A stretch of DNA of 27,710 nucleotides. Origin: a virus. The notes under the pieces were generated by a model. The model did not search any database. It saw only the letters and a list, made by a program, of their open reading frames with translations, and was not told the origin of the DNA. Both the position numbers and the translations under genes were made by a program. Positions within the stretch are counted from its first letter, which is position 1; every line of letters begins with the position of its first letter. Shown here piece by piece: positions 3,849 through 9,658 of the stretch. The DNA is taken from positions 1 to 27,710 of IMG/VR virus record IMGVR_UViG_3300009506_000156; one strand, given 5' to 3'.

Positions 3849-4053
3849 GCTGCGCCATTGGGAGTTTTACGATCCGGCCAATACCGTGGAGTTTTCCAGG
3901 GCTGAGCAGATGCGTGATGACCATGGTTGTGCGGTGTGCGAGTTCCGGCCTAAGGCGTGGGGTGAGAAGTGTTCGAAGAAGAAACAGCCGGTTAAGGGTA
4001 AGCCATTTTGTTGGGAGTTTGAACTGGAGGGTTGTGTAGATGGGGACCGCTGA
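3841..4053 (+). CDS. small Cys-rich hypothetical protein
   Basis: This 70-residue protein starts at an ATG overlapping the end of the DUF1064-like gene by 8 nt. Four or five cysteines (CAVC near residue 32, CSKKK near 44, then C near 57 and 65) suggest a small zinc-binding domain. It is in the early operon directly before the antiterminator-like gene, which overlaps it by 14 nt. No family is recognised. Confidence 0.6.
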   Translation: MNELRHWEFYDPANTVEFSRAEQMRDDHGCAVCEFRPKAWGEKCSKKKQPVKGKPFCWEFELEGCVDGDR

Positions 4054-4579
4054 GGCGTTGCTGACTCGTTTGAATCCGAAAACTACGTGCTGGACTGGTG
4101 GGGGCGGTGGTGAGGTGATTACCCAGGAGGATGTGGCGGGTGCGCTGGCTGGGACGAGTTATATCCAGGAGTCGATTCTTCGGTATAAGTATTTGGGTGA
4201 TACGAGCCTGAGGCGCTGGCTGGTGCAGTGGCTGACGGCGGCGGTGATGAGCGAGGCGGATCATTGGCGGGCCTGTTCATTTAGTCAAAAGCAGGCGTTG
4301 GCTGAGATTGTGTTGATGGAGTGTGTGCCTGAGTGCCGGTGTGAGAGGTGTAAGGGGCGTGGGTCGATACCGGATGAGGGTGGGTTGCTGTATTCGTGTC
4401 CGTTTTGTGGGGGGCGGGGCTGGGCGATGCTTAGGGCGAAGGATAAGGCAACGCGGCTTGGGGTGGAGCCTAGAAACTATCGTGGCACCTGGAAGGCGCG
4501 TGAGCGGGTGCTGGTGGCTAAGTTTTTGGATGAGGAGCGCAAGGGGATTGAGATTGTGAACCGGGGGTTGAGGGTTTGA
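4040..4579 (+). CDS. lambda Q-like late-gene antiterminator
   Basis: This 179-residue protein follows GGAGG (4026-4030) with 9 nt spacing. Its central region has two CxxCxGxG units, CERCKGRG (about residues 99-106) and CPFCGGRG (about 119-126), then a helical C-terminus with WKARERVL. Lambda Q has the same layout: two CxxCxGxG zinc modules in its second half followed by a helical end. Q proteins load onto RNA polymerase paused at the late promoter and let it read through the terminator before the lysis genes. Here a promoter (6095-6124) and strong terminator (6201-6230) follow, as expected, but separated from Q by the cassette island. The call rests on motif and context, so a different DnaJ-type zinc protein is possible. 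Confidence 0.7.
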   Translation: MGTAEALLTRLNPKTTCWTGGGGGEVITQEDVAGALAGTSYIQESILRYKYLGDTSLRRWLVQWLTAAVMSEADHWRACSFSQKQALAEIVLMECVPECRCERCKGRGSIPDEGGLLYSCPFCGGRGWAMLRAKDKATRLGVEPRNYRGTWKARERVLVAKFLDEERKGIEIVNRGLRV

Positions 4580-4613
4580 TATCCTTGGTTACTCGATTAG
4601 GTGCGAGGCAAAA

Positions 4614-4814
4614 ATGACAAAAGAAGAATTGATTGTAAAGCAGAGGCTTGAAATAGAAGAGCTGAAACAAAAAATAGCAGAATATGAAGATGCTTGTAGG
4701 GAGGCGAGAAATTATCTTTGGCGGCCTGAGCAGTGGAGCACAAAATGCCCGGACTTTCCAAAAGTGGCAATGGCCGGGATTGTAAAAGCAAGACAGGCAA
4801 TTGAAGACATATAA
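4614..4814 (+). CDS. cassette ORF 1: small coiled-coil protein
   Basis: This 66-residue protein starts after GAGG at 5 nt spacing. Residues about 1-35 are a charged coiled coil (VKQRLEIEELKQKIAEYED). Its stop TAA lies in the ATATAAC box of the following attC. The N-terminal style resembles small phage proteins starting TKEELIVKQ, so it could be an original phage gene rather than a cassette gene, and the left edge of the array is uncertain. No function is assigned. Confidence 0.65.
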   Translation: MTKEELIVKQRLEIEELKQKIAEYEDACREARNYLWRPEQWSTKCPDFPKVAMAGIVKARQAIEDI

Positions 4815-4932
4815 CGACCAGGGTGAGACGCGCTGCGCAACACTGAAGGGGAACGAAGTCATGACAACACCAAACACTGAGACAGAGCAAGCACCGACGC
4901 GCAGCGTCGGCTGTGAAGCGGTTTTGTTAGGC
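4809..4932 (+). repeat. attC-like site 1
   Basis: The left box ATATAAC (4809-4815) holds the stop of ORF 1 and the right box is GTTAGGC (4926-4932), which fits the GTTRRRY consensus exactly. Inner arms are GCTGCGC (4832-4838) with GCGCAGC (4899-4905), and GAC (4827-4829) with GTC (4906-4908), giving a stem with a 2-nt bulge. The large loop contains a ribosome-binding site (AAGGGG, 4846-4851) and the ATG at 4861. Length is 124 bp, within the known attC range. Confidence 0.65.
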
Positions 4933-5154
4933 GGGATGGCCAAGCCATTGCCGCCTGAAATTATGATCCATTATTTTCACGGGCTCTCAACTCCTGCACA
5001 CATGTCATTATCAGATAAAATTTACTGGGAAGAAGATATTCCATTTGAACACGGGTCAGACCGTCTTTATAAACTTTCTCTACAGCAAGTAGAAGCGTTA
5101 CGAGATCAATGCGATCGAATTTTGGAAGTCGCAGGCAAGGCTCTACCCGCCTAA
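4861..5154 (+). CDS. cassette ORF 2: hypothetical protein
   Basis: The protein is 97 residues from the ATG at 4861, which has AAGGGG 9 nt upstream inside the attC loop. A 72-residue form could start at 4936, just after the attC, but there the GGCGGG sits directly against the ATG. The first 25 residues are encoded by the 3' part of the attC and are probably a translation leader rather than a domain. The body contains KPLPPEIMIHYFHGLS and ends in a helix (LQQVEALRDQCDRILEV). The stop lies within GCCTAAC of the next attC. No family is recognised. Cassette proteins are often of unknown function; defence or accessory roles are possible but not shown. Confidence 0.65.
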   Translation: MTTPNTETEQAPTRSVGCEAVLLGGMAKPLPPEIMIHYFHGLSTPAHMSLSDKIYWEEDIPFEHGSDRLYKLSLQQVEALRDQCDRILEVAGKALPA

Positions 5155-5218
5155 CGTCAGCAATAACGCGGCAACTGAGCACCGCGAAGGTGCTCGCTGT
5201 TAATTGCCGTTGTTATGT
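5149..5218 (+). repeat. attC-like site 2
   Basis: The left box GCCTAAC (5149-5155) contains the stop of ORF 2 and fits RYYYAAC exactly. The right box is GTTATGT (5212-5218), the variant seen in Vibrio-type repeats. Nested stems are TAAC (5164-5167) with GTTA (5212-5215), CGGCAA (5169-5174) with TTGCCG (5204-5209), and GAGCACC (5177-5183) with GGTGCTC (5189-5195) around a GCGAA loop. The unequal spacers (2 nt on the left, 8 nt on the right, between the two inner stems) give the asymmetric bulges typical of attC. Confidence 0.75.
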
Positions 5219-5234
5219 TTTTTAAGGAAAGATT

Positions 5235-5717
5235 ATGAGTGACTATAAGTTTTTAGGTTTGAATGTCTGGACATATTCGGAGCGTCGAGCGATAGCTTGG
5301 TTTGGCAGCAAAGGCTCGCACTACAGCGACAAGAAACGATACTGGATGTTTGAGGTCGGCGAATGGGGAGGCCTTGGCCTTGAGGTCACGGTAGGCGGAG
5401 AAAATAGAGAAGTCTGTCTTCGGATAGGTTTGGGGCTTTTGACTCTGTATGTAGCGCTGACCGGGATAGTACCAGATAGATACAAGAAGGCAAAAGAGAT
5501 AGCTGCCCAGGAAAAGTGCCATGCCTACGAAATCGATTTTTCTGGCGAAGGAAGAGTCACCGGGGCAATGCTTAACTTCAGGCACAACATAAGCATTAGC
5601 TTCAGCTTTTGGCAAAATCAATCTGCGTGGTCGGCACGAAGTATTAGGCAGAAGCTAAAAAGGTTTCCGTACTGCGAAGGGATAGGCCGAACCTTCTTTA
5701 TTACGAATGAAACATAA
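5235..5717 (+). CDS. cassette ORF 3: hypothetical protein
   Basis: This 160-residue protein starts at an ATG with AAGGA (5224-5228) upstream, just after the attC right box. It is soluble overall, with a moderately hydrophobic stretch at about residues 62-78 (LRIGLGLLTLYVALTGIVP) that may be a buried helix or a membrane segment. It is aromatic-rich (WMFEVGEWGG near 38, SFSFWQNQSAW near 121). The stop lies in the ACATAAC box of the next attC, so the unit attC2-ORF3-attC3 is a complete cassette. No family is recognised. Confidence 0.75.
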   Translation: MSDYKFLGLNVWTYSERRAIAWFGSKGSHYSDKKRYWMFEVGEWGGLGLEVTVGGENREVCLRIGLGLLTLYVALTGIVPDRYKKAKEIAAQEKCHAYEIDFSGEGRVTGAMLNFRHNISISFSFWQNQSAWSARSIRQKLKRFPYCEGIGRTFFITNET

Positions 5718-5844
5718 CGTCCGCCATGAGCGGCGCACCGGATAACGGAGATATAAACTATGAGTAATAGCAGAAGTGAAGCGGAGAACGCTGGTGACGC
5801 AAGCAACGCGGTAGGTGCGTCCGACTCAATGGCGCTTGTTAGCG
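5712..5844 (+). repeat. attC-like site 3
   Basis: The left box is ACATAAC (5712-5718), overlapping the ORF 3 stop; the right box is GTTAGCG (5838-5844). Stems are TAAC/GTTA (5715-5718 with 5838-5841), CGCCAT (5722-5727) with ATGGCG (5829-5834), GAG (5728-5730) with CTC (5825-5827), and CGCACC (5734-5739) with GGTGCG (5814-5819). The unpaired A at 5828 resembles the extrahelical bases that set strand choice in attC recombination. The loop carries GGAG (5746-5749) and the ATG at 5760. Confidence 0.75.
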
Positions 5845-6047
5845 GCAGCGATCTTAATGAAAGCCTTCGTCATTTCGGAATGGTGTATCAAATGGATGGC
5901 GACTTAATGCGCTGCAAATGCTGTAACAGAGCAATCATCGCCAGTCGAATAGATGAGCAATTAATTCATGCCGATGGATGTGTTAAGGCGGGATATATGG
6001 ATAACGAAAACCCATGGCAAATATTGACCAAGTGGCTTGCCCGCTAA
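5760..6047 (+). CDS. cassette ORF 4: putative zinc-binding small protein
   Basis: The protein is 95 residues from ATG 5760, which has GGAG at 5746-5749 inside the attC loop. An alternative ATG at 5829 would give 72 residues but has no visible ribosome-binding site. The first about 27 residues come from the attC and are Ala/Ser/Gly-rich. The body has CKCC (about residues 53-56) and HADGC (about 71-75), an arrangement able to bind one zinc ion. The stop is in a CGCTAAC sequence. No family is recognised. Confidence 0.6.
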   Translation: MSNSRSEAENAGDASNAVGASDSMALVSGSDLNESLRHFGMVYQMDGDLMRCKCCNRAIIASRIDEQLIHADGCVKAGYMDNENPWQILTKWLAR

Positions 6048-6094
6048 CTAGAGATAACTGGCAACATTGCCAATATGGACGCCTGAGATAGTTT

Positions 6095-6130
6095 TTTACT
6101 GTATAAAAAACAGGTGGTTATAATTACAGT
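6095..6130 (+). promoter_or_regulatory. putative late promoter (pR'-like)
   Basis: A perfect TATAAT -10 box lies at 6119-6124, with a weak -35 (TTTACT, 6095-6100) at 18 bp spacing. A start near 6131 would give a leader of roughly 100 nt ending at the terminator at 6201-6230. This is the arrangement of lambda pR' and tR', which Q acts on. Inverted ACTGTATA (6098-6105) and TATACAGT (6138-6145) flank the -10 box and may bind a regulator. Confidence 0.6.
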
Positions 6131-6200: not shown

Positions 6201-6230
6201 GCCCGTCGGGAAACCGTTCGGGCTTTTTTT
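6201..6230 (+). terminator. intrinsic terminator (tR'-like)
   Basis: The hairpin has GCCCG (6201-6205) pairing with CGGGC (6219-6223), an inner CGG/CCG around a GAAA loop, and a run of seven T (6224-6230). It sits between the late promoter and the first late gene, so late expression should need antitermination by the Q-like protein. Confidence 0.85.
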
Positions 6231-8101: not shown

Positions 8102-9658
8102 GTGGATGAGCGTGAGCGGAGAATACGCACTCGGCTGCGTGATGATTTTCTCCACTATGCGCCTCGCTGCTTAAAGATTCGTACGAAAGAGGGTGAGGTT
8201 AAGCCGCTGGAGCTTAATCGTGCTCAGTTGTATATCCATGCCAGGCTTGAGGCTCAAAAGCGCGTTACCGGTAAGGTGCGGGCGATCTTGCTTAAGGGCC
8301 GGCAGCAGGGTGGATCGACTTACGTTGAGGGTCGGTTTTACTGGAAGGTTTCGAATAACCGTGGTGTACAGGCCTTCATCCTGACCCACGAGACCGATGC
8401 TACCAAAAACATCTTCGGGATGGCGAAGCGCTATCACGAACATTGCCCTTTGCTGGTAAGGCCTACGCCTACGGGTGACAGCGCTAAGGAGCTGGTATTT
8501 GGCGGGCTAGACTCGTCGTACAAGGTGGGTACTGCGGGGAATAAGTCGGTTGGTCGTTCTGGTACCAATCAGCTATTCCACGGTTCTGAGGTGGCGTTTT
8601 GGCCAAATGCTTCGGAGCATGCCAAGGGGATATTGCAGACGGTGCCTGATCTCCCTGGTACTGAGGTTATTTACGAATCCACAGCCAATGGGGTGGGTAA
8701 CTTCTTTCATCAACAGTGGAAGGCGGCTGAGGCGGGGATATCTGAGTTCATAGCGATATTTATTCCGTGGTATTGGCAGGATGAGTACAAGAAGTCAGTT
8801 CCTGATGACTTCCAGCCTAGCCAGGTAGAGCGCGACCTGATTGACCAGTATGAGCTGACGTATGAGCAGCTTGTTTGGCGTCGGGCGAAGATAGTTGAGC
8901 TTGCTGGTGATTCTGATTGGGCGGCAGGCCTGAAGGCGTTTAAGCAAGAGTACCCAATGAACGCGGCTGAGGCCTTCCAAGTGACTGGGGGCGACGGCTT
9001 GATTACCGCTGATGCGGTTATGAAGGCGCGTAAGCAGAAGGTGACCGGGGTGGGGCCGCTTGTTGTGGGTGTTGATCCTTCTCGTGGCGGTGACCGTTTC
9101 ACGACCATTAAGAGGCAAGGTCGTAAGGCGTACGGCATGAAGGGCTGGACTGGCGCTGATGTTGATTCGCTGGGTAAGTGTGTTTCCAAGTGTAAGAAGA
9201 TCCTAGACACCGTGTGTCCGATTGCTAAGCGCAAACCGGACATGATGTTTATCGACTCGGGATCTGGGGCGGATATTGTTGATCGGCTGATTGAGCTTGG
9301 GTATGAGGATCGGGTTAAGGCGATTTCGTTCGGCGGTTCTCCACTTAATCCTGACAAGTACACCAACAAGCGCAATGAGATGTGGGGTGAGTCGGCGGCA
9401 TGGCTTAATAACGAAAACATGCCGGTGGAGGTGCCTGATAGTGATGAGTTTCAGGCTGATCTTTGTGCCTCGCCTTACGACCGAGATAGCTCAGATCGTA
9501 AGGTGCTTTGGCGTAAGGAGAAGATTAAACGGGAATACGGATTCTCACCGGATTGGGGTGACGCTTTGGGCTTGACGCATGCTGAGCCGGTGACGATTTC
9601 AACATCATCTAGCCACGTTGAAGAGCGTGAGCCGGATGGTGATGGTTTTTACTTTTAG
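8102..9658 (+). CDS. terL: terminase large subunit
   Basis: This 518-residue protein is the ATPase and nuclease that pumps DNA into the procapsid. The ATPase part has a Walker A-like LLKGRQQGGSTYV (about residues 63-75) and a region with a conserved acid (LFHGSEVAFW, about 158-167). The nuclease domain has VVGVDPSRGGD (about 322-332), FIDSGSGADI (about 383-392) and SPDWGDALGL near the end, giving the metal-binding acids. The GTG start follows GGAG at the end of the small-subunit gene. Length is normal for the family, and no defect is seen. Confidence 0.93.
   Translation: MDERERRIRTRLRDDFLHYAPRCLKIRTKEGEVKPLELNRAQLYIHARLEAQKRVTGKVRAILLKGRQQGGSTYVEGRFYWKVSNNRGVQAFILTHETDATKNIFGMAKRYHEHCPLLVRPTPTGDSAKELVFGGLDSSYKVGTAGNKSVGRSGTNQLFHGSEVAFWPNASEHAKGILQTVPDLPGTEVIYESTANGVGNFFHQQWKAAEAGISEFIAIFIPWYWQDEYKKSVPDDFQPSQVERDLIDQYELTYEQLVWRRAKIVELAGDSDWAAGLKAFKQEYPMNAAEAFQVTGGDGLITADAVMKARKQKVTGVGPLVVGVDPSRGGDRFTTIKRQGRKAYGMKGWTGADVDSLGKCVSKCKKILDTVCPIAKRKPDMMFIDSGSGADIVDRLIELGYEDRVKAISFGGSPLNPDKYTNKRNEMWGESAAWLNNENMPVEVPDSDEFQADLCASPYDRDSSDRKVLWRKEKIKREYGFSPDWGDALGLTHAEPVTISTSSSHVEEREPDGDGFYF

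Follow-up and report, generated by a model that had tools for sequence, protein, structure and literature searches.

Three integron cassettes form a block in the 27,710-bp linear IMG/VR virus record analyzed here in its entirety (the window), and their attC sites are antisense to the cassette genes. Our preferred reading, to which we assign a probability of about 0.6, is that the block was inserted by an integron integrase (IntI) at a minus-strand G|TT and that its genes are read together with phage transcription.

The left part of the window encodes an O-like replication protein, a DnaC-like loader, a junction-resolvase-like protein, and a Q-like antiterminator, and the right part encodes a large terminase, a portal, and an N4-gp56-type capsid protein. 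Although relatives of the capsid protein (63 to 64% identity) are present in two Janthinobacterium genomes, the viral contig is linear and no lysogeny module was found along its length, so the prophage state named in an earlier note on this DNA is no more than a possibility. At the DNA level, no similarity of the window to phages or plasmids was detected. Many relatives of TerL (8102 to 9658; 62 to 67% identical) occur in phages otherwise sharing almost nothing with the window, pointing to strong module swapping at the terminase. The placement of the array between Q and the late promoter was borne out, since the Q-like gene adjoins the array and a strong promoter and a terminator lie downstream. 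These two elements to the right of the block are compatible with a lambda-type late promoter. A remnant of an IntI promoter or LexA box at 6099 was considered and rejected (spacing off by one base; N9 matches common, with 15 in the window).

Two covariance models were used for scoring attC sites. For R1, array flanks beside intI, which was present in 57 of 299 Pseudomonadota genomes, were taken as the attC source; chromosomal attCs were gathered by their box chains, and 46 were aligned. R2 was built from 25 phage attCs, none of them from the window, and its structure is backed by covariation. When ten integron loci were held out of R1, 48 of the 49 hits pointed in the array direction, and thus the strand of an attC can be read reliably with the model. 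On 50 stretches of related phages (761 kb), R1 yielded a single hit up to an E value of 1 (21.4 bits), and its best match in the window outside the three sites in Table 1 reached 8.1 bits. Both models ranked attC2 first and attC3 second in the window. The earlier note had described three attC junctions with paired arms and proposed a covariance-model scan of them. With both models, the scan returned clear hits at attC2 and attC3 and a weak one at attC1; the paired arms stood for the former two. At attC1 the R boxes are present and the inner arms lack pairing of attC geometry (arm score of 4.4 versus 16.7 and 19.5 for the other two sites), and the inner arms with extra-helical bases found in attC2 and attC3 are missing; the inner arms of attC1 have decayed. 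As far as sequence can tell, attC2 and attC3 are genuine attC sites. An Rfam scan gave no attC family match, and a simple attC scanner alone scored barely above shuffles, as would suit intergenic hairpins unrelated to integrons; however, two independent attC models, the exact box chain, and the geometry of the extra-helical bases (see below) render that explanation extremely improbable, as does the finding that the PH101 sites, scored here with the same model, recombine with IntI1 (PMC9892861, available text).

Table 1. Features of the cassette block and its flanks (window coordinates).
Feature	Position	Strand	Remarks
Q-like antitermination protein	4040..4579	+	phrog_127, E 6.3e-6; left neighbor of array
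c1, 66 aa	4614..4814	+	stop 4812-4814; TAA stop kept in joined empty site; no partner box at left
attC1, degenerate, terminal site of block	4809..4932	-	R1 10.3 bits, E 1.4; R2 11.0 bits, E 1.7; arm test fails
Three-cassette block	4815..6047	-	minus-strand order c4+attC3, c3+attC2, c2+attC1; ends at G|TT
c2 cassette gene, 72 aa	4936..5154	+	stop 5152-5154; second in-frame ATG (4861) within attC1
attC2, intact	5149..5218	-	R1 31.8 bits, E 3.5e-5; R2 36.3 bits, E 9.5e-7
c3 cassette gene, 160 aa	5235..5717	+	stop 5715-5717
attC3, intact, long variable loop	5712..5844	-	R1 24.1 bits, E 0.0016; R2 24.8 bits
c4 cassette gene, 95 aa, Cys-rich	5760..6047	+	stop 6045-6047; relative in Xanthomonas phage Rb1
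GTTAGCG, where cassette c4 begins and meets the phage flank	6042..6048	-	exact partner of attC3 R″
Likely late promoter, TTTACT-18-TATAAT	6095..6124	+	10/12 consensus bases, best in region
Intrinsic-terminator-like hairpin with T run	6201..6230	+	-14.7 kcal/mol, z -2.25

All four consecutive ORFs ending in TAAC, as previously noticed, are present on the plus strand, where these stop codons are supplied by the sequence complementary to the R′ box of the minus strand. At three consecutive links the boxes are complementary at 7/7 positions (R′ of each site versus R″ of the next), and for c2, c3, and c4 the attC R″ is complementary to the first bases of the cassette itself at 7/7 positions. Exact R-box complementarity between neighbors is the defining feature of cassettes in real arrays. 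GCCTAAC, ACATAAC, and CGCTAAC occur once each on the plus strand of the window, and the GTTAGCG box is its only copy there. A fourth attC at 6042 to 6097 was rejected, as it lacks L arms; the fourth TAAC box (6042 to 6048) is the cassette start instead. Read on the minus strand, the block runs from G|TTAGCG (6048) to G|TTATAT (4815), just past attC1. The R′ box of attC1, the last site, has no partner near c1, which is what a block joined to an unrelated G|TT, a secondary site, should show. The joined flanks read ...GAAGACATATAA|CTAGAGATAACTGG, in which the stop codon of c1 is retained. Because of this and the lack of a partner for the last box, c1 is probably a resident gene beside the insertion rather than a cassette. 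A partner box for its R″ (ATATAAC) was sought at the left edge of c1, and none was found. The four-ORF cassette array of the earlier note would thereby shrink to c2, c3, and c4. The empty junction is predicted to read GAAGACATATAACTAGAGATAACTGG. A search for the empty site through relatives of TerL, portal, MCP, Q, lys, and o6242 returned relatives sharing single modules only, none with both flanks; with no block-free relative found, the empty site stands as a prediction.

Usually, though not obligatorily, an integron cassette gene and its attC face the same way. In the window, all R1 attC hits fell on the minus strand. Read in this direction, attC2 and attC3 form 12 of 12 arm pairs and carry two single extra-helical bases in the 5′ arm, versus only 9/13 and 8/11 arm pairs when read as plus. 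The position of the extra-helical bases makes the minus strand the top strand of both sites, and the plus strand of the window is predicted to be their recombinogenic bottom strand. By codon usage, the plus-strand frame is the best of six for c1, c2, c3, and full-length c4, the body of c4 alone (5845 to 6044) being ambiguous. The genes thus lie on the plus strand and the attCs on the minus strand, so that the attCs are antisense to c2, c3, and c4 and the usual co-orientation is absent; the standard ORF-then-attC layout that had been assumed does not apply. The start codon of c4 falls inside the variable loop of attC3. Start codons of antisense genes were seen within long-loop attCs of several phages: the window (5712 to 5844), L196 (1876 to 1960 and 3154 to 3276), L197 (1924 to 2041), and L199 (996 to 1124). 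Such an attC, with the start codon of the next antisense gene inside its loop, makes up that gene's 5′ leader.

No match above the cut-offs was obtained for c1 to c4 in Pfam, PHROGs, NCBIfam, or PADLOC. An assignment of c3 to Acb3 was rejected (E 0.039, below Pfam's cut-off), and the AlphaFold model of c3 (pLDDT 33) was too poor for use. Searches of plasmids, phages, and Pseudomonadota/Burkholderiales genomes for donors of c2, c3, and c4 yielded only a weak plasmid relative and a phage relative of c4, matches to c3 being at chance level. The phage relative is unannotated in Xanthomonas phage Rb1 (PQ569993, 11732 to 11914; 35.5%, E 3e-5), and no attC site was found around it.

The earlier note had called cassettes inside a phage late-control region seemingly rarely if ever described, which is too strong in view of published phage cassette clusters. 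According to the available text of Qi et al. 2023 (PMC9892861), 17 CALINs (clusters of attC sites lacking integron integrase) occur in 10,705 phage genomes, including Tetrasphaera phage TJE1, Pseudoalteromonas phage PH101 (called most typical), Polaribacter phage P12002L, and MW202573, and recombination by IntI1 was shown for five of the six phage sites tested. R1 recovered the sites of PH101, MW202573, and TJE1; those of P12002L went undetected. PH101 has plus-strand attCs with minus-strand genes, and in MW202573 minus-strand attCs accompany plus-strand genes, a methyltransferase among them. TJE1, whose cassette genes are sense, is the exception.

We also scanned in full 46 phage records that share single genes with the window and found arrays in IMGVR_UViG_3300034407_002507 (G689; two arrays) and IMGVR_UViG_3300042196_000135 (G710); 49 further, mostly shorter, phage records contained none. 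All three arrays are antisense to their own genes. The two in G689 (L197 and L198) run in opposite directions, and their genes are co-directional with the operons, with a DnaB-type helicase on one side and NinG and NinB on the other. G710 carries six to seven minus-strand attCs with plus-strand cassette genes, including a Dam-like methyltransferase, that run toward an intI gene. The encoded IntI is complete (L196:4446-5423; TIGR02249, 417 bits, cut-off 265), and the record also has a phage integrase and a tail-fiber gene; it is apparently a complete phage integron with reversed cassettes. In G711, two linked minus-strand attC-like sites (L199:172-224 and 996-1124; boxes GTTAGGT/ACCTAAC) flank a 232-aa plus-strand ORF antisense to them, likely another such phage cassette. 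Two weak attC-like sites, 170 bp apart, were seen in G681 (L200:1899-1960 and 2129-2179; R2 23.1 and 20.8 bits). Besides the window, six phage records with cassettes were checked, and five of them have the reversed layout.

When the same longest-ORF rule was applied to chromosomal and phage cassettes, 131 chromosomal cassettes were sense, 7 antisense, and 11 unclear, and among 23 phage cassettes 1 was sense, 13 were antisense, and 9 were unclear, the ORF lengths on the two strands being too close. The antisense phage cassettes come from the window, PH101, MW202573, G689, and G710, and the G711 cassette is additional. The antisense:sense ratios of 13:1 and 7:131 differ at a Fisher P of 5e-13, a value to be read with caution, as cassettes that share a phage are not independent samples. 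Counted by array, six of seven phage arrays are antisense (two in one phage, with annotation used for MW202573 and TJE1), whereas of the chromosomal arrays in which two or more cassettes could be called clearly, 19 in all, none was mostly antisense (array-level test, run with 20 arrays, P = 2e-5); the phage sample comprises seven arrays in six records, three of the arrays having been found by searching relatives of the window. All 27 phage cassette genes tested outscore every opposite-strand frame. A geometric strand test on phage attCs overall gave 17 for the model strand, 9 against, and 2 ties; as it is less clear across phage attCs, strand assignment there relies mainly on the model and the consensus.

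A search of the 27.7-kb window with 26 IntI proteins gave nothing better than an E value of 0.36, in agreement with the earlier note that no integrase is nearby. No attI was recognized beside the array, so the adjoining intI and attI of a complete integron were not found; a weak attI remnant in the flank is possible. With attC2 and attC3 lying 494 bp apart, at least two close attC sites are present, and because no integron integrase is present, the array belongs to the CALINs, which have been described in phages before.

Most likely, an integron integrase inserted the block at a minus-strand G|TT secondary site immediately after the stop codon of c1, leaving c1 intact. The block lies in minus orientation, yet c2 to c4 point along rightward phage transcription: being antisense to their attCs, they are co-directional with it and would not depend on promoters within the cassettes. 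Every attC is located 5′ of the gene that follows it and can hold the start codon of that gene, and c2 to c4 would be expressed by read-through on the Q transcript, presumably to the benefit of the phage. The decayed arms of attC1 and the sense cassettes of TJE1 count against this reading. The former, like the absence of IntI from the window, would also suit capture of a piece of a chromosomal integron array by illegitimate recombination, a route raised by Qi et al. for some phages (PMC9892861, available text), in which the antisense genes would be a property of the donor array. We regard such capture as unlikely, since the block ends exactly at G|TT on both sides and no chromosomal array in the above comparison was mostly antisense.

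A host IntI, as the earlier note proposed, is possible as the agent of insertion, but G710 has its own IntI beside a similar array, and a phage-borne IntI is therefore also possible. Taken further, the gene content of G710 and the recurrent start codons inside attC loops (L196, L197, and L199) would fit a phage integron lineage of its own, with reversed cassettes, 5′ attCs, and shuffling by a phage-borne IntI, of which the window array would be a dispersed product; with IntI found in a single record only and attC sequences differing widely between phages, this origin appears less probable still than capture from a chromosome. Insertion by IntI at the secondary site remains our preferred reading for this antisense array, and its recurrence elsewhere among phage arrays suggests that the rare reversed cassette type is taken up or retained by phages because only co-oriented genes would be expressed without disturbing the lytic program. 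More tentatively, and at somewhat less than even odds, these may form a distinct class of phage cassettes, with the gene antisense to its attC, the attC as a 5′ leader, and phage-borne integrases shuffling operon genes.

The window array is akin to the phage CALINs in the available text of PMC9892861, in which attCs accompany small or methyltransferase genes in phage genomes without IntI; by our models PH101 and MW202573 share its antisense layout and TJE1 does not. Unlike those CALINs, it lies in the region from Q to the late promoter of another phage. It resembles sedentary chromosomal arrays in attC architecture, box chain, and small genes of unknown function, but in those arrays 131 of 138 clear cases are sense and intI adjoins the array. 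In the inverted integrons of Treponema (PMC3607928), the parts are likewise oriented unusually to one another, but it is intI that is turned around with respect to the cassettes; in the window, each gene is turned around with respect to its attC. No remark on an antisense layout was found in the available text of PMC9892861, and the variant, recurring across unrelated phages, seems to be undescribed.

Phages are suspected of spreading integron cassettes, but this route has received little study. Should reversal prove systematic, phage cassettes would be more than bacterial cassettes in transit: either phages select a rare type, or a phage integron lineage makes it, and orientation would then mark cassettes that have passed through phages. 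The arrays also suggest that small phage genes, DNA methyltransferases among them, make up a pool exchangeable by site-specific recombination.
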